Source: Nitrosomonadales bacterium (lineage in GTDB: Bacteria; Pseudomonadota; Gammaproteobacteria; Burkholderiales; Nitrosomonadaceae). Taken from it: a stretch of 64,000 nt of DNA. The notes beneath the pieces are model-generated. The model was not told the DNA's origin. It saw only the letters and a program-made list of their open reading frames with translations, and made no database searches. Positions 47 to 8,852 of this stretch are shown piece by piece. The first letter of the stretch is position 1. Every line of letters begins with the position of its first letter. Location of the stretch: positions 1 to 64,000 of the forward strand of contig VFJL01000065.1 in assembly GCA_009886095.1 (NCBI GenBank), read 5' to 3'. Both the position numbers and the translations under genes were made by a program.

Positions 47-91
47 ATAAATCAATTAGTTACAGGCTTTTTCTTGTGGCTAACTTTTGTC

Positions 92-110
92 GGGGTTACG
101 CCGGGGTTAC
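92..110 (+). repeat. Direct repeat GGGGTTACGCCGGGGTTAC, candidate integrase arm site
   Basis: Identical 19 bp at 4613-4631. Confidence 0.75.
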
Positions 111-200
111 GGTCTGGATATATTTTGAGCTGATTCTCTGCTCACAAACCAAAACCGCCAAGCTATCTCAGCACCAGCGGCTTGAATTGTGCAAACCCGC

Positions 201-518
201 TTATTTTTCCAGAAGGTTTGAGATTGTGACCAGCCTTGGCGGCGGGCGTGGTGCGAATTTTCCCGTGGCGACTTTTTGGGCAGCGGCCTGAAGCGCATCT
301 TTTTTGCCACCGTCTCCTTTTTTGAGGTGCATATATTGGGCAGCGGCCTTTGCAGCGTCCAGCCTTACTCTCTGATCGGCAGCACCATCACGCATCACCG
401 ACAGCATGAAATCAAGCGGCGTTTGATTAACCGGCGACTCTGGCAGCAATACCGGCGGGATTGCAGGTCGACCAGCGCCAGTTCTTGCGCCGCCACTTCT
501 TCCGATTTTTCCTGCCAT
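201..518 (-). CDS. Phage terminase small subunit-like protein
   Basis: GGARTGAGRP N-terminal motif followed by TPLDFMLSVMRD, typical of TerS-like proteins. Confidence 0.65.
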   Translation of the reverse strand: MAGKIGRSGGARTGAGRPAIPPVLLPESPVNQTPLDFMLSVMRDGAADQRVRLDAAKAAAQYMHLKKGDGGKKDALQAAAQKVATGKFAPRPPPRLVTISNLLEK

Positions 519-552
519 TTGAATTTCTCCAAAAGTGAATTTAATCTCTGCG

Positions 553-1020
553 TTAGGGGGAGCGCGGTCTAGCGTCCTGGAAGCTACAGAGATTTACCCC
601 CCCGTCATGCTGAGGTTCTAACGAGTGCTTTTCGATCAACTCCAGCAGCGCCAGAACGTCATAAAACTTAAGCGGGATTTCTACCTCGAAAGCAGCCTTG
701 CCACGAATCGCAATGGTGCAGATAACCGGATCGGTCTCGACAGCATCTTCGACAGTCACGGCAAAGCGGGTGCCCGGTTCAGCCTTCAGCATATCTATAA
801 CTTTTTGCAGCCGTAATTCCATTGGCGTCATCGGCTTGCTCGCTTCCGGTGGTGCGACAATCTCTGCGTCAACAATAATATTTTTCTCAATATGCCCCGC
901 ACCCGTACCTTCAAAAGGGTCAAAAGGTGCTTTTGGTGGTTTTGGGGGTACGGTATCGGGGGCATAGTAAGAATTTTTTACATTCTCAAGCTGTTTCAGC
1001 CTGGCAAGGTATGCACTCAT
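553..1020 (-). CDS. Hypothetical element protein
   Basis: ORF; the internal ATG at 1020 overlaps the upstream gene stop (ATGA). Confidence 0.6.
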   Translation of the reverse strand: MSAYLARLKQLENVKNSYYAPDTVPPKPPKAPFDPFEGTGAGHIEKNIIVDAEIVAPPEASKPMTPMELRLQKVIDMLKAEPGTRFAVTVEDAVETDPVICTIAIRGKAAFEVEIPLKFYDVLALLELIEKHSLEPQHDGGVNLCSFQDARPRSP

Positions 1021-2561
1021 AATGCCGCCTTGGTCCAGTGGTAATGGGTCGTTGGTCGTCCGCCGGTCGTTATCTCTTCTTCGCATAGGTGGTGGTACTC
1101 CAACAGCAAGTTGATAGCAGCTTGCGCCTTACTTGGATTTTCTAAGCCAGCCCAGCCCTTTTGATAAATGTCACGCGCTTTGAATACGTCCGGCAGTTTG
1201 CCACTGGCCAGCCGCTTCAACAGTGTTTTGGCTGCATCAATATCCGGTCGCGTGGCGTAGCTGTAAATTCGCCGTGCGTGGCTTTCAAGATACTCACTGA
1301 ATGCGATAGCACGCAGTAAAGCTTTTTCACTGATCGCACCCTGTCCGGTGTCGCATAAGTGGTTTATCAGCGCCAGTGAGGGGATTAGTTTCCGGTATTT
1401 CGAGAGGTGCGACACGATAGCCGGATGCTCTTCGCCGGATCGTAGTCGTGTATCCAATGCGACTATCCATTCTGAAAACAGCCTTTGTGCTGGATCATCA
1501 AAGCGCAGGAACGGCACGCCGCCAACTTCCGCGTCAGTCTCAGTAGGATTAAGATTATCCAGTCTTTCGGCCAACACGTTTACGGCTTCCCGTGCTTGGC
1601 TGTTTGGATAACGGTCTACATAGCTGCACTCTGGCGCAATGTCTGGATACACCATCAGCCCGAAGCGTTGCAACAGGCCGTCAGCACCGGCACCGCCGCC
1701 GGTCGCTTGGCGCACATATTCGGCTAATACGCCGGGTTGGATGCCACCAATAATCGAGAGACACAGTGCAGGAATGTGCAGTCCCTTGCCGCGCATGATA
1801 CGGTCGAAGGTGTAGGATTTATCACCGTCCGCCGCTGTGAGATAAAATGATCTTGCGACTTCCTGTCCACCAGCATCAAGCTGTTTCAACAGGCCGATGA
1901 TTTCGTCTGCTTCCACCATCAGGCCGTTGGGGTTTTCCATCAGCAATTCGCCCAAAGCCTCATAGCTGGCGTTGTTGGTTAGGTAACGCTTCAGGATAGG
2001 AGGCTCCCATCCTTGAGGAGATTTCAGCAAGTCCGAAACATTGGCAGTAGCATCTTCCTTCAACTTAATCTTGGCTTGAGATGTGTTGACTGCTCGTTGT
2101 ACTTTCAGCAATTCACCATTCGCATCAAATTCAGCTTTAGCAGTATTGAAAACATTGAATGCCGCCGTCTGCAATTTCTTTATCGGAGACAATGCCTCCG
2201 CCAATGTTGGAGATTTCATCACGCCAGAATTGCCCACAACCGCGCCCCAGAGATTCGGGGTTACCGTCCAGTCATCTTTCCGTTTCGGTCTGATAGCTAC
2301 CTTGCGTCCAATGATAGCCGCCGTCATCACCAGCACCGCAACCGCTGCAAAGTCTGGGGGGCATTGCATCCGTTCAGAAATGTCCCGCACATAGCCACGC
2401 AATGCATCCGGCAAATACGAATAATCGAATGGCATCACGTCAGGGAGTTCGGGCAGTCGTTCGGGTGGCGTGTTGACTGAAGATCGGGTATAATTCGCGT
2501 GTGCTTTTTTGTAATCCCCCGCGCCAGCCTCCCCGCTGGCGTTGTCTTTTGTGCTCATCAT
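1017..2561 (-). CDS. DUF3987-type (primase/helicase-like) protein
   Basis: 514-aa ORF; LWGAVVGNSGVMKSPTLAEAL Walker-like region typical of DUF3987 element proteins. Confidence 0.75.
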   Translation of the reverse strand: MMSTKDNASGEAGAGDYKKAHANYTRSSVNTPPERLPELPDVMPFDYSYLPDALRGYVRDISERMQCPPDFAAVAVLVMTAAIIGRKVAIRPKRKDDWTVTPNLWGAVVGNSGVMKSPTLAEALSPIKKLQTAAFNVFNTAKAEFDANGELLKVQRAVNTSQAKIKLKEDATANVSDLLKSPQGWEPPILKRYLTNNASYEALGELLMENPNGLMVEADEIIGLLKQLDAGGQEVARSFYLTAADGDKSYTFDRIMRGKGLHIPALCLSIIGGIQPGVLAEYVRQATGGGAGADGLLQRFGLMVYPDIAPECSYVDRYPNSQAREAVNVLAERLDNLNPTETDAEVGGVPFLRFDDPAQRLFSEWIVALDTRLRSGEEHPAIVSHLSKYRKLIPSLALINHLCDTGQGAISEKALLRAIAFSEYLESHARRIYSYATRPDIDAAKTLLKRLASGKLPDVFKARDIYQKGWAGLENPSKAQAAINLLLEYHHLCEEEITTGGRPTTHYHWTKAAL

Positions 2562-2797
2562 GCTGTTGCACCGTTTTGGCGGGTGCGACTTTCAAGCCAA
2601 TTTTCAAGATCGGATCGCCGGTACCGTACTTTGCTGCCAATCTTTATAAACGGGATTGCGTATCTGCCAGTTGATCGCCAAACACTCAATGTGCCGGGCG
2701 TTGTATCTAAGACTTCAGCAGCCGCCCTTTCATTCAAAAGATCGCTGCTACGTTTGATTATTTCGGAAAGGCTTGGAATTTCGTTTTGAGTTTGCAT
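2558..2797 (-). CDS. AlpA/excisionase-like helix-turn-helix protein
   Basis: EVLDTTPGTLSVWRSTGRYAIPFIKIGSKVRYRRSDLENWL is the classic AlpA/HTH_17 pattern. Confidence 0.85.
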   Translation of the reverse strand: MQTQNEIPSLSEIIKRSSDLLNERAAAEVLDTTPGTLSVWRSTGRYAIPFIKIGSKVRYRRSDLENWLESRTRQNGATA

Positions 2798-2923
2798 CGT
2801 TATCCCCTGTACAAATTACGCTATGCCGATTGGCTAACGTTAAGGATGAACGATAGAGATTAGTTTCGTCGGGGTACACGTACAAAAACCGGCTTCCTGT
2901 ACGCCAGAGTATTGGTGCAGGTT

Positions 2924-3382
2924 TCAGGGTTTCTTGCGGGTGCGCGACTTGCGCGGGTTCACTATCTGGTCAATGGTTGCTGTAGTGGTTCTACACTTTT
3001 TGGCTAGATCTTCTTTAATTTGTTCGGAGGGTGGCAGAGCGCCGAAAACATACCGTTCTGGGAACCGCTTGCGGTTAGTCGGGTCAGCTTTAAGCTGGTT
3101 GTCGTACAGCAAGCGGTTAGCTTGTTTAATAAGAAGTAGGCTGTCGTACTGTTCACGAATCGCGGCCTTTGCCGATGGCAGGAAGTTACTTCCCTTTCTG
3201 GGTTTGAGCTCCCGAAAAAGTAAATCGCTGAAAAACTTCTTTACGGCGTCCGGCAGTGGATCGCCGTTTGCATCACGCAGTCCCTTTATTTCGGCTTGCA
3301 TGAAGTGAGTAACTGAGTCGTTCTCCCCATATGCTTCTACGGCCAATGCCCAAAGATTGATTGTCTCTTTATCCATGCTCAT
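2924..3382 (-). CDS. Hypothetical element protein
   Basis: 152-aa ORF overlapping the integrase stop (ATGA). Confidence 0.6.
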   Translation of the reverse strand: MSMDKETINLWALAVEAYGENDSVTHFMQAEIKGLRDANGDPLPDAVKKFFSDLLFRELKPRKGSNFLPSAKAAIREQYDSLLLIKQANRLLYDNQLKADPTNRKRFPERYVFGALPPSEQIKEDLAKKCRTTTATIDQIVNPRKSRTRKKP

Positions 3383-4590
3383 CGTTTCGCGCCCTTCAGT
3401 GGCAGCACGTCAGCGGCTTTCGTCAATCCACCAGCTACCATCATTGCAGTCGTCGCGGTATTCACGCTATCTCGTACCGGGTCAAGGTCAAGCCGCGCAT
3501 AGATCGTCGTAGTAGTCTGGCTTTTATGGTTCAAACTTTTGCCAATAATCGCCAGCGATGCGCCGGATTTAGCTTGCCAGCTTCCCAAGGTTCGGCGTAG
3601 ATCGTGGATGCGTAGATCATCAATCCCGGCACGCTCTAGGACGCGCTGCCAGCCCTTCTTAGGTTCTGCTAAGTGTCCTGAGTTACCAATGCCGGGAAGC
3701 ACGAATCTAGCCGGTTCTGACGGCTTCCTGTTTCGTAATACAATCAGCGCTTCAGGCGATAGCGTCACGGTTTGAGGTGTCCCATTTTTGGTTTCTTTGA
3801 TGCGCCATTCTGCACGCTCTAGGCTCACGTCAGCCCACTGCATAGACAGCACGTTAGCGCGTCTAGCACCAGTCAGCAGGGATAGCAAAAAGTAATCCCG
3901 CATGGTGTCGTTCTGCTCATCGGCTAAGGCTTGAAAGAATCTTGGGAGTTCGTCACCTTGAATGAATCTGTCGCGGGATTCTTCGTGAAATTTCTGGATA
4001 CCACTAGCCGGGCTCGTGCCTGTAAAAAGTTTCTGCATCCGGGCGTAACTGAATAGGCTGGACGCCAGCGCGATAACGCGATTCGCTCGGTGTGGGTGTA
4101 CGCGCCCAAGTTTTGTATGAATGGCGGCTAACTCGGTGTCCTTAATGCGCGACAGCTTGCGGCTGGACAGTTTGTTCAGGTAAAGATCAAAGCTGCTTTT
4201 GTAATCCCGTTTTGTCGTGAAAGATAGCGGCTTTTTGCGCTTGTTGCGCCGATGCTCTAAGAATTCCGTGAATAGCTCACCCAGAGTCAGCTCGTTCTTG
4301 CCCTGTTTTGTTATTTCCGCCGTACTTTTTCCATTCACCAATTCGGCTACATATTCCGCAGCCTTGCGCCCGGCACTCTCTGGCGTCATCGCGGGGTACT
4401 GCCCCAGAGTGATACGTTCGGGCTCTCCAGATTTGACGCGCTTATACACTGAGAAAGTTTTTGCTCCGGTGCTTGTAACCCGAAGCTGTAACCCTGGCAC
4501 CTTTTCGAAGTGATAGGTAACACGTCCGCCCTTCGCGGGTATCGGCAAGGTGTCGATCGCGCCCTTGCTGAGCCTGATATTTTCAGCCAT
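3379..4590 (-). CDS. int: Tyrosine recombinase/integrase (P4-like, DUF4102 N-terminus)
   Basis: LLTGARRANVLSMQW ... IHDLRRTLGSWQAKSGASLAIIGKSLNHKSQTTTTIYARLD catalytic motifs. Confidence 0.95.
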   Translation of the reverse strand: MAENIRLSKGAIDTLPIPAKGGRVTYHFEKVPGLQLRVTSTGAKTFSVYKRVKSGEPERITLGQYPAMTPESAGRKAAEYVAELVNGKSTAEITKQGKNELTLGELFTEFLEHRRNKRKKPLSFTTKRDYKSSFDLYLNKLSSRKLSRIKDTELAAIHTKLGRVHPHRANRVIALASSLFSYARMQKLFTGTSPASGIQKFHEESRDRFIQGDELPRFFQALADEQNDTMRDYFLLSLLTGARRANVLSMQWADVSLERAEWRIKETKNGTPQTVTLSPEALIVLRNRKPSEPARFVLPGIGNSGHLAEPKKGWQRVLERAGIDDLRIHDLRRTLGSWQAKSGASLAIIGKSLNHKSQTTTTIYARLDLDPVRDSVNTATTAMMVAGGLTKAADVLPLKGAKR

Positions 4591-4612
4591 ATATATGCCC
4601 TTTAAGTAAACT

Positions 4613-4631
4613 GGGGTTACGCCGGGGTTAC
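4613..4631 (+). repeat. Second copy of GGGGTTACGCCGGGGTTAC
   Basis: Identical to 92-110. Confidence 0.75.
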
Positions 4632-4751
4632 ACTTTGGGTGAAAATCGGTGTATTTCCGTGTAATCCAGTTAATGAGAATATATCCGTAAATGACTGTTT
4701 TGTAAAGCAGTATTAAGGTTCGTTAAGTAGTGGATATTATAGGGCTTTCAA

Positions 4752-4797
4752 ATTCGTAATCAGTAGGTCGCCAGTTCGATTCCGGCCAACAGCACCA
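4752..4797 (+). repeat. att duplicate of the tRNA-Thr 3' end
   Basis: 46/46 identity to 1-46. Confidence 0.95.
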
Positions 4798-4805
4798 TAA
4801 AAGCA

Positions 4806-4840
4806 ATGGCTTAGGTGGTTTCTCTCTAAGCCATCTTTTC
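4806..4840 (+). terminator. Rho-independent terminator, probably the original one of tRNA-Thr
   Basis: ATGGCTTAG / CTAAGCCAT stem followed by CTTTTCT. Confidence 0.65.
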
Positions 4841-4844
4841 TAAT

Positions 4845-4917
4845 GTAGGCGGTGGAAAGCTATCAGCTTGGACTGTTAATCCGCAGGTTCCAGGCTCGAG
4901 TCTTGATCGGGGAGCCG
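4845..4917 (+). pseudogene. Degenerate tRNA-Asn(GTT)-like remnant
   Basis: GACTGTTAATCCGCAGGTT....CTCGAGTCTTGATCGGGGAGCC resembles the tRNA-Asn 3' two thirds; acceptor 5' strand and stems do not pair well. Confidence 0.5.
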
Positions 4918-5163
4918 AATAAACAAGGACTTAAAGATTATTCAAAGTTCCTTGTTATCAGATCGTAGCCCTATAGTAGGCTTTCCGATAAGTAGCGTTT
5001 GCTTGTATTGCCAGTCACAAAATGACTGAAATCGATACACAGCCAACCTTGAAGGCGGGACATTCAACTTACGTGGATTGTCAGAGGTATCGTATTGCAT
5101 GCCTTAAACCCGTGAAAAAAATAGGGGGAGGATTACACCCCCCCCTTAGCATCACTAACGAGC

Positions 5164-5622
5164 CTACCCGTTTGAGATCGTGAGTCCCTCGTGGACAATC
5201 TCGATGGACTCGACCGCCACTTCGTTTCCTTCCGCCTTCAGATCCGTGCCGGTAATTTTGGTTGGCCACGCATTGGCAAGCGTCCACACCATGGTCGGTG
5301 CGCCAGCTTCGTCGAGCAAACTGATAGTGACCGGAACCCGTTTGATGGTGTTCATCTTGATATCGTTGAACCAGACCCAGAATCCATTATCCGCTTTGAA
5401 GATGCCCTTCTTCATCGTGACGTTGCCGACCTTCTTTAGTCCTGGCATCTTGATTACCGAAAAGTCCTTGCTGTCGCCATGCCGATATTTTATTTCTTCG
5501 GACTGGACGTCCAGTCCGGATACTTCCTGAAACGACATTACGTTGGTATCCCACTTGACCTCGAAATGAAACTTGGGTAAAGGCCATATGGTGGTTGATT
5601 GTGCTGAACCGTCATCTGCCAT
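5164..5622 (-). CDS. Contractile-tail tube protein (eCIS/phage tail, gp19/Afp1-like)
   Basis: FHFEVKWDTNVMSFQEVSGLDVQSEEIKYRHGDSKDFSVIKMPGLKKVGNVTMKKGIF family pattern. Confidence 0.85.
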   Translation of the reverse strand: MADDGSAQSTTIWPLPKFHFEVKWDTNVMSFQEVSGLDVQSEEIKYRHGDSKDFSVIKMPGLKKVGNVTMKKGIFKADNGFWVWFNDIKMNTIKRVPVTISLLDEAGAPTMVWTLANAWPTKITGTDLKAEGNEVAVESIEIVHEGLTISNG

Positions 5623-5690
5623 GTCATACTCCCTTCTAAATAAAAATTAAAAAACAAAATCGTGAATTTATAGTCTGAGAAAACTGCAGG

Positions 5691-7217
5691 CTAAGACTTC
5701 TGCATTTGCTGCTGGAGTGTGATCTCGATAAATTCTGCCGGGCGGCTGATCGCCACCAGCACTGTCACTCTCATGATACCTTCCAGAATATCTTCAGGCG
5801 TCATGGTTTCACCCAATCCGACCAGAACAGCAAAAGCATCGTCCGGAACAGCTCCGGCCAAGCCGCCTCTCTTCCAAACCCCTGTCAGAAAGTTGCGTAT
5901 CATGCTCTTGACAGTAACCCAGGTATTTGCCACATTGGGTTCGAACACATAGGCCTTGGTGGCTAGCCTGACCGACTCCTCAAGCATGATCATGGTTCTA
6001 CGGACATTGATATAACGCCAGTCCAGGCTGTTGCCATCCAGGGTACGGGCACCCCATACCAGAGTTCCCTCCCCAACGAATGGACGGATCGCGTTGATTG
6101 ACTTGCCCTGAGGCGATACATTCAGGTCCTCCTGATCCCCATGGGTAATATTGACGGCTGGGGATATTACCGAATTCAAGCTTACGTTGGCCGGTGCTTT
6201 CCAGACTCCGCGGCTGTTATCCACCATTGTATATACGCCCGCCATAGCTGCGGATGGAGGGAGAAGATTAAGGCTATTCGCCATTTCCGTCAGGATCATG
6301 TTGTAAAGCGGGCTAAGCACGATCAGGCTCTTGTTCAGCATTGCCTTGTCAGCTTTCTGGACGTCCGCTTTCAAAATGCTATCAACTATCCCCTGTAGTT
6401 GCGCAGCTTTATCGGCAGGTTGATTGGCGATGTTGAGTTCATTCTTCAAAAGGCTCTGGAGCAACGCCTGTCCAGCATCATCTATGTTCCAATAAGCAAG
6501 ATCCTTTGCCTGGGTGATGGTGGTATTAACCCAAGGATAGTAGGCCATGCCGTAATCCAGAAAGTTGATCCCCAGCGCGTTGCAGAAGGTTGCCACAGGA
6601 TCGCCGGCGGGATCTTGCCTGGAACGATACCCATCAGAAACATCCAGAATCGCCACCCGGTTTTTCATGACATTACCGCAGTGATCCAACATGTGTTGCT
6701 GGACAGCAATACAGTCACTTTGTTTTAACAAAGTGGCATCCGGGATAACTACTATAGTGGGCTCCCGTTCCTTGATCAGCAGGTCGATGCCGCCTTTTAA
6801 TTTATCCAGGTCTACATCGTCGCTGTAGTTACCCACCGATGCAATGTAACAAGCTCCACCGCCATTTTGGAAAAACAACAACATGCTGTAATACAAAAGA
6901 TATTTCCCCTTCGTTTGCTCCAGCGCATAGCCCGTACCTGCCAAGGAAAATGATGGCGGTGCCGTGGGCGGGGTAGGCACCGCTGCAAAACCAAACTGCG
7001 TTGTTGGCCCATAACCGAAATAATTATGAAATTCCGCCATCGAGGTAATCCTCCAAGGTTGATTGCTCAGCGATTTCCCCTTATTGTCAGCTTTTTCCGT
7101 ATATCCGATAAAAGCGGGTACCGCTGTTGCAACCTCTACGACAGAATTTGGAAAGGCGTTTTTTTCGACAATATAAACGCCAGGTGTTTTAATTTCTCCC
7201 ATGTTGCCCCCTAACAA
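5691..7217 (-). CDS. Contractile tail sheath protein (Afp2-like)
   Basis: IKTPGVYIVEKNAFPNSVVEVATAVPAFIGYTEKA start; INAIRPFVGEGTLVWGARTL...WRYINVRRTMIMLEESV C-terminal domain. Confidence 0.92.
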   Translation of the reverse strand: MLGGNMGEIKTPGVYIVEKNAFPNSVVEVATAVPAFIGYTEKADNKGKSLSNQPWRITSMAEFHNYFGYGPTTQFGFAAVPTPPTAPPSFSLAGTGYALEQTKGKYLLYYSMLLFFQNGGGACYIASVGNYSDDVDLDKLKGGIDLLIKEREPTIVVIPDATLLKQSDCIAVQQHMLDHCGNVMKNRVAILDVSDGYRSRQDPAGDPVATFCNALGINFLDYGMAYYPWVNTTITQAKDLAYWNIDDAGQALLQSLLKNELNIANQPADKAAQLQGIVDSILKADVQKADKAMLNKSLIVLSPLYNMILTEMANSLNLLPPSAAMAGVYTMVDNSRGVWKAPANVSLNSVISPAVNITHGDQEDLNVSPQGKSINAIRPFVGEGTLVWGARTLDGNSLDWRYINVRRTMIMLEESVRLATKAYVFEPNVANTWVTVKSMIRNFLTGVWKRGGLAGAVPDDAFAVLVGLGETMTPEDILEGIMRVTVLVAISRPAEFIEITLQQQMQKS

Positions 7218-7423
7218 AAGTTAACTTACAAAACTGAGCGGAGTCCGATTTAGTGGACGGGCAAATCATCTGGATTATGCCGCAGATTATTGTCTGTTAG
7301 CGTAAGATCGGTTAGATTGGTTAACGGGATAATCAGGCAAAGGCTGCAAATCGCCCGAAAGTTGCTAAAAAATTCATTGCGAATCAATTACCAAGTAAGA
7401 GCGACTTAAGAAGCTCCAAGACT

Positions 7424-8046
7424 ATGTCAACCATCCCACAATCGCAGCAAGACTTCAGTCGGTATCTTCGAGACGTGTCCGGCTCTTGAAGGCATCAGCG
7501 TCTGCCTTCGATGGCGGTTCTAGGGGCGAAGCTAAGGGTTGGCACGCTATTCGCGTGCTGCTTCACGATACGAGCAACTCGAAATCGCTGCTGGGCCTAC
7601 TGAGCTTGAAGGACAATGCGCTACGTCAGCACGTCCACGCGCTATGACCCGAACCTCTCGCCCTACCAGGGGCTTGTCGGCTTTACCGTTGATCCAAATG
7701 GCGCAATGAGCTATTGGGCCCCCTTGGGTGACGGGCCGCCGACACGGTATTCAAGACCTCCAATGTCATTTGAGGATTGGCGGAACGGGCCGGTCATCGT
7801 GGATACGAGCAAAACGGAGTTCACTCGTCGAGATCTCGTGCTTTCACTCACAGATAAGGACGAGGCGCCCATGTGGATTCCCATCTCGACGCGGAGTACG
7901 CTGGGCTTACTCGGGGAACAGCCTAGATTCGGGCATGTCCGACATTGAGCTTCACAGTGTGTCAGGTTGCCTACGAGCTCCTGCAGAGCCTCAAGGATCA
8001 AACTGAGCATGGCGCCCCTCTTAAGAAACGCCTCCTAATCTACTGA
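7424..8046 (+). pseudogene. Decayed hypothetical gene with at least two frameshifts
   Basis: Continuous protein-like sequence spread over three frames: LLKASASAFDGGSRGEAKGWHAIRVLLHDTSNSKSLLGLLSLKD / RYDPNLSPYQGLVGF...VIVDTSKTEFTRRDLVLSL / VCQVAYELLQSLKD. Confidence 0.65.
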
Positions 8047-8183
8047 TTGTAAAAAGCGGTAAATTAAACAGGGAGTGGATTCAAATCTGAAGTACAGCAG
8101 AGTTACAGTCAAAACCTTTCCTGTTGATGCCGACTGAGTATTCAGAAAGTATTTTCTCTTTTACATCCTGAGCGACTCGGTGC

Positions 8184-8852
8184 CTACGAGATATTTCCCA
8201 CACCGGGAGTGTAGCTGGCGCTGATGACGTTATTGCTGATGAGCGTGTCGCACTGCACCACTCCGCTGAACTTTGATATGCCGGCATTCACGCTGACTGC
8301 GCCTGAATTAATCTCAATCTGGCTGGCATTAATAGTAACTTTCGCGCTGGCGCTTACTATGATGCCGCTTGCCCCGAGCTTCACTGAATTGCCGTTGCTA
8401 TCCGTAATCTCGATTGAGCCAGGACCATCCTTGAGCGTGATTTTTTGGCCACCAGGCGTCTCGACAATAAAATTCTCTTGGCCGCTCTGATCGTCCAGAG
8501 TGATCTTCACGCCATTGCGGGAACACAGAAGTTTTTTGTTATTGCTCGCATTCATTGTCTCCGGCGGCGGGTTACTGCCGCTCCACAGGCAACCAATGAC
8601 ATAAGGCCGCCTCATATCGCCAGCTTCAAATGCAACCAGAACTTCGTCGTTCACATCAGGGATAAACCATGTCCCCTGATTTTTGCCAGCCATTAAGGTA
8701 GCAATACGGGCCCATATTTCGTAGCCGTGCTGGCCAGACGCTGCGTCTACCTGTGGAAGCCGCACCTTTACGCGTCCAAGGTTATCGGGATCAACATTAT
8801 CAATCACGACTGCCGGGAGCACTCCATTAAGCTGTCTCATACATCCATCCAC
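8184..8852 (-). CDS. Spike/baseplate protein (VgrG/gp5-like, Afp8-type)
   Basis: GVLPAVVIDNVDPDNLGRVKVRLPQ...ARIATLMAGKNQGTWFIPDVNDEVLVAFEAGDMRRPYVIGCLWSG OB-fold pattern. Confidence 0.9.
   Translation of the reverse strand: MDGCMRQLNGVLPAVVIDNVDPDNLGRVKVRLPQVDAASGQHGYEIWARIATLMAGKNQGTWFIPDVNDEVLVAFEAGDMRRPYVIGCLWSGSNPPPETMNASNNKKLLCSRNGVKITLDDQSGQENFIVETPGGQKITLKDGPGSIEITDSNGNSVKLGASGIIVSASAKVTINASQIEINSGAVSVNAGISKFSGVVQCDTLISNNVISASYTPGVGNIS

Follow-up and report, generated by a model that had tools for sequence, protein, structure and literature searches.

The smallest phage satellite reported to have characterized activity is PICMI115 (6.1 kb), a representative of the phage-inducible chromosomal minimalist islands (PICMIs) of Vibrionaceae (PMC10803314). 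PICMIs share a simple gene logic (int, iolg, alpA, prim), are packaged as concatemers, and are induced by a virulent phage; they are modeled by the co-location of int, alpA (PF05930/PF12728), and prim (DUF3987/DUF5906), and their hallmark is integration at fis (PMC10803314). The iolg genes vary widely in sequence; that of PICMI115 is essential for excision (PMC10803314). PICMI115 lacks homologs of terS, sid, and ppi, no cos or pac site was found in it, and the direction of its packaging is unexplained (PMC10803314). In other satellites, a terminase small subunit (TerS) redirects packaging (PMC6092414, PMC10690885); Gram-negative phage-inducible chromosomal islands (PICIs) may carry terS (PMC6092414), and terminase genes have been taken as a sign of phage mobilization (PMC11389934). 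Here we describe an element of 4,751 bp at one end of a 64,000-nucleotide stretch of DNA (hereafter, the window) from a Nitrosomonadales bacterium of the family Nitrosomonadaceae (assembly GCA_009886095.1, contig VFJL01000065.1). The element is probably a complete integrated phage satellite, in which the size and gene order of a PICMI are joined to a PICI-like TerS and a tRNA target.

Comparison with described satellites

The likeness to PICMIs is extensive: both comprise six genes in about 5–6 kb, both follow the order int, a gene overlapping it by ATGA, alpA, and DUF3987, and neither includes capsid genes. The three genes of the PICMI model are co-located in the element, and the gene overlapping int would be the equivalent of iolg by analogy. 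Unlike PICMIs, the element lies in a tRNA-Thr gene rather than beside fis, encodes its own TerS, resides in a host outside Vibrionaceae, and has a DUF3987 protein without the Toprim part of its relatives. As in Gram-negative PICIs, int, alpA, a replication gene, and terS (present in some PICIs) occur without structural or lytic genes; however, at 4,751 bp the element is about a third of the typical 15 kb, and it lacks a divergent regulatory pair. It also resembles the TerS-encoding Staphylococcus aureus pathogenicity islands (SaPIs) in that its own TerS is proposed to confer packaging specificity, with the large terminase subunit (TerL) coming from the helper, but the TerS belongs to the HNH/cos HK97-like type (PHROG 641), and no Stl-type repressor or size redirection genes were recognized. 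Searches of Pfam, PHROGs, NCBIfam, and PADLOC recognized no interference genes (rpp, ppi, or capsid redirection), rpp not having been used as a query. Because the fis hallmark is lacking, PICMI115 has no terS, and PICIs are roughly three times larger, we regard the element as PICMI-like in its working with a PICI-type packaging gene, and file it under neither group.

Element boundaries and chromosomal setting

The integrated element is complete, spanning window positions 48–4798 (4,751 bp) with six intact genes. The original prediction had confined it to 201–4590; its extent is instead from att to att, between two identical copies of a 47 bp attachment (att) core at 1–47 and 4752–4798 (both plus strand). 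This repeat is far above chance (0 in 100 shuffles). The first copy is the 3′ 47 bp of tRNA-Thr(CGT); the distal copy is followed, from position 4799, by TAAAAGCAATGGCTTA, which in a sister genome of the same genus (G119) stands directly after tRNA-Thr as an empty site. The contig, C32, has its end at window base 1, exactly where the att core begins. C32 lacks the 5′ part of the tRNA gene, and the complete tRNA-Thr(CGT) is found at the end of contig C12 (L002 1471–1546), which overlaps C32 by 109 bp. Other members of the genus carry different islands at the same tRNA-Thr.

Inserted in this tRNA gene, the element has aroQ to one side and chromosomal genes to the other, save for a three-gene tail-like remnant; it is not within a prophage. 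No capsid, portal, TerL, or tail gene was identified inside 48–4798 (open reading frame [ORF] list, Pfam, PHROGs, NCBIfam), and it therefore does not qualify as an autonomous prophage. None of the six genes matched relaxase or conjugation families (Pfam, PHROGs, NCBIfam). The empty list of structural genes, together with a true TerS (below), supports the very small satellite-type element that had been predicted, and its setting shows that such an element is not always embedded in a larger prophage.

The assembly also holds a hint of mobility. All three contig junctions tested overlap by exactly 109 bp, which suggests an assembly graph built on words of 109 bp, whose branch points became the contig ends. 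At the C12/C32 junction, the overlap starts on base 1 of the att core; because a repeat of 47 bp could not by itself interrupt a graph of this kind, a branch at this point fits the presence of a second junction in the sample. A second sequence consisting of another base, the core, and at least 62 bp of the left end of the element could cause the branch, and it might come from the junction of an excised circle, from tandem copies, or from insertion at an att-like copy on contig C65. That copy, the third of the 47 bp tRNA-Thr 3′ end in this genome (G000:C65:25519–25569; L110 11519), has a downstream flank 73% like window 4799–5040 and remnants resembling another tRNA 3′ end.

Beside attR, window 5164–8852 holds tail tube (gp19), sheath, and gp5/Vgr-like genes alone, followed by housekeeping genes; this is an orphan contractile-tail fragment. 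In genome G123 (L114), a Vgr-like gene directly follows the att copy, with the tube and sheath genes not between them.

A phage-type small terminase subunit

The gene terS (201–518, minus strand) encodes a 105-aa protein that, judged by its sequence, is a bona fide TerS of the HNH–TerS–TerL–portal phage type. It matches PHROG 641 (terminase small subunit) with E 3.5e-21; no Pfam or NCBIfam model matched it. On IMG/VR contig L017, a 52% identical TerS lies between an HNH endonuclease and TerL, with a portal gene next, and among 80 phage loci retrieved using the L017 TerL as query, 69 have a TerS homolog just upstream of TerL. An alignment of 31 sequences indicates that the satellite protein shares the C-terminal region, as well as a short glycine/arginine-rich N-terminus seen in some phage members. 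The homology that had been proposed in looser terms, as "small-terminase-like," is thus clear. The structural model of this protein (AlphaFold2) was weak (predicted local distance difference test [pLDDT] 68; predicted template modeling score [pTM] 0.34), and a search against PDB sequences returned no match.

The HNH–TerS–TerL order is that of HK97-like cos phages, and a TerS of this type would therefore depend on a helper for TerL and HNH. Spread into the particles of another virus by way of its own TerS would be the most likely route for the element, which may in this manner redirect helper packaging.

Integration and excision genes

All six ORFs lie on the minus strand, and three 4 bp ATGA overlaps couple int to the 152-aa gene (3379/3382), alpA to the DUF3987 gene (2558/2561), and the DUF3987 gene to the ORF downstream (1017/1020). 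This arrangement, and the identities of int, AlpA, and DUF3987, are as originally described. The tyrosine integrase (3379–4590, 403 aa; PF00589, E 2e-21) also contains an Arm-DNA-bind_3 domain, for which two copies of GGGGTTACGCCGGGGTTAC are natural arm sites. These putative arm-type sites, at 92–110 (consisting of two GGGGTTAC half-sites) and 4613–4631, both on the plus strand, are the only two matches in the window at up to 2 mismatches, one inside each end of the element (0 in 100 shuffles). A copy with 1 mismatch occurs on the reverse strand just upstream of int in the related locus L160. The same tRNA-Thr holds an island of about 19 kb in another genome of the family (G044); the integrase of this island is 60% identical, and its arm site is nearly the same.

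The 152-aa protein (2924–3382), encoded by the gene overlapping int, occupies the place of the PICMI excision gene iolg and may be its counterpart. This role is assigned by position, because no sequence relative was found in the other genomes of the order (399 searched); comparison with PDB sequences gave insignificant matches only (helix-turn-helix-like). The next gene, at 2558–2797, encodes an AlpA-like HTH_17 excisionase or regulator of 79 aa (PF12728, E 1.4e-9; PHROG 66, E 1.4e-7). The region upstream of alpA (2798–2923) is the only sizeable internal intergenic region of the element; with four GTAC motifs (at 2809, 2874, 2880, and 2899), it is a candidate operator or promoter.

The DUF3987 protein and its coupled partner

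The largest gene (1017–2561) encodes a YfjI-like DUF3987 replication protein of 514 aa (PF13148, E 8e-78), to which relatives are 58–77% identical over the alignment. The relative at locus L006 combines an N-terminal Toprim with DUF3987; the copy in the window is without the Toprim part and keeps the P-loop (GNSGVMKS), so that priming would fall to the host or the helper. The structural model was poor (pLDDT 42), and searches of PDB sequences recovered insignificant matches only.

Downstream, and coupled to it, is an ORF at first read as 177 aa. Both the ATGA overlap and a conserved N-terminus (MSxYLxxLKxxE) fit a start at 1020, which is most likely the true one and gives a protein of 155 aa (553–1020). 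The same N-terminus (MSxYLxxLK) directly follows DUF3987 in 16 of the 17 related loci, mostly with a 4 bp overlap, and the protein is for this reason considered a conserved partner coupled to the replication protein, not cargo. The two unknown proteins of the original prediction, there listed as candidate functional cargo, are thus probably not cargo: one is this partner, and the other stands at the iolg position. The partner may serve as a marker for detecting further such elements.

Related elements

Among 125 genomes of the family, 16 encode relatives of the DUF3987 protein (E <1e-60), as do 14 of 399 from the order. The YfjI/DUF3987 islands of Nitrosomonadaceae and Gallionellales (L006–L015, L158–L168) resemble the element in having a core of DUF3987 and coupled partner with an integrase, and several have tRNA or tmRNA targets; they differ in the last gene, in length (the majority being longer), and, in several cases, in having a Toprim-type N-terminal part. 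The core pair is joined to divergent integrases and to differing attachment sites, among them a tmRNA (L009) and a tRNA-Phe repeat (L014 and L164). The gene after the core is a PHROG 641 TerS in the element described here and a PHROG 57 TerS in L012, L014, and L164. In L159 (genome G100, same family), where an 81% identical DUF3987 with a broken frame is accompanied by its coupled partner, an HK97-type major capsid gene stands alone downstream (3894–5036, minus strand) as a putative member of the element. A lone downstream capsid gene of this kind occurs in some capsid-redirecting satellites.

An exchangeable virion-hijacking slot after the core is an attractive idea drawn from few cases. It is possible, if still tentative, that these loci belong to a satellite lineage, so far undescribed, of the Nitrosomonadaceae and their relatives, with a constant core of DUF3987 and the 155-aa partner, swappable integrases, and a swappable packaging slot (PHROG 641 TerS, PHROG 57 TerS, or major capsid), in which the last gene would set the choice of helper and the 4.75 kb element would be the smallest known satellite to encode a TerS.

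A family of roughly 90-aa proteins in the last slot of L008, L161, and L167 was considered as a TerS and rejected; in phage contigs its members lie near tape-measure genes, not beside TerL. The last-slot proteins of L008 and L009 had no phage matches. In L164, a 93 bp stretch of the terS-like gene occurs again upstream of int, which points to tandem insertion at tRNA-Phe. Genome G034 contains two elements (L164 and L165) separated by 1.2 Mb; their DUF3987 proteins gave identical matches, and their flanks and integration genes differ. Additionally, L006 and L007 present the same element sequence in metagenome-assembled genomes labeled Gallionellaceae and Methylophilaceae, reflecting either a recent transfer or a binning error.

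Proposed mechanism and alternative explanations

If the element is a satellite, a helper phage, on infecting the cell or on being induced, would raise alpA expression; AlpA and Int, possibly with the 152-aa protein, would then excise the element at the 47 bp core while Int bridges the pair of arm sites. Replication, probably to concatemers, would be driven by the DUF3987 P-loop protein with its 155-aa partner and primed by the host or helper, given the missing Toprim primase domain. The satellite TerS would bind the satellite's own packaging site and recruit the helper TerL, together with the helper HNH nuclease as in HK97-like cos phages, and about 8–10 tandem copies of the element would fill a normal helper capsid.

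Several observations weigh against a satellite. The whole element has been seen once only, with no copy elsewhere, and its TerS occurs in no other of the 125 family genomes. IMG/VR scans for DUF3987 (single sequence and alignment), int, and the 152-aa protein recovered no relatives. No L017-like TerL that would mark a helper prophage was found in the host genome, by a query that had no positive control, and no cos-like DNA is common to the element and the phage packaging loci, which share with it nothing but the TerS coding region and 14-mers at chance level. The hint of mobility in the assembly could, in principle, reflect strain variation.

The uniqueness of this TerS within the family and the failure to find a resident helper would also be expected of a shrinking or defective island, derived from a larger one such as L160/L181 (about 19 kb, carrying restriction-like cargo) that lost its cargo and primase domain and is no longer mobilized, TerS being a passive leftover; relatives in the same family are indeed longer and carry Toprim. 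However, none of the six frames is broken, the att copies and arm sites are intact at both ends, and the genes are still tightly coupled; moreover, the site is empty in the sister genome, and the pattern of contig overlaps hints that the sample held a second junction. We therefore consider decay unlikely. A TerS without a TerL partner might alternatively act as a dominant-negative decoy, blocking the packaging of infecting HNH-type cos phages in a resident anti-phage element that spreads by other means, and satellites often interfere with their helpers (PMC6092414). This seems decidedly improbable: PADLOC returned no defense system match of note, the relatives carry replication and excision genes that fit mobility, and the roles of decoy and packaging factor are not mutually exclusive. 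Least probable of all is an ordinary integrative element that moves only by conjugation in trans or generalized transduction and acquired terS by chance, since, common as integrative elements in tRNA genes are (the other islands at this tRNA-Thr in sister genomes included), no relaxase is found among the six genes and, in related elements, this slot is repeatedly filled by a TerS, from two different families.

Implications

Should the satellite reading be true, the element, at 4.75 kb, is smaller than the 6.1 kb PICMI115, and a still smaller element with its own TerS would offer a simple explanation, open to testing, of one way in which packaging can be hijacked by minimal means. It would also extend satellite biology to the Nitrosomonadaceae, a family of ammonia oxidizers whose phages are little known.

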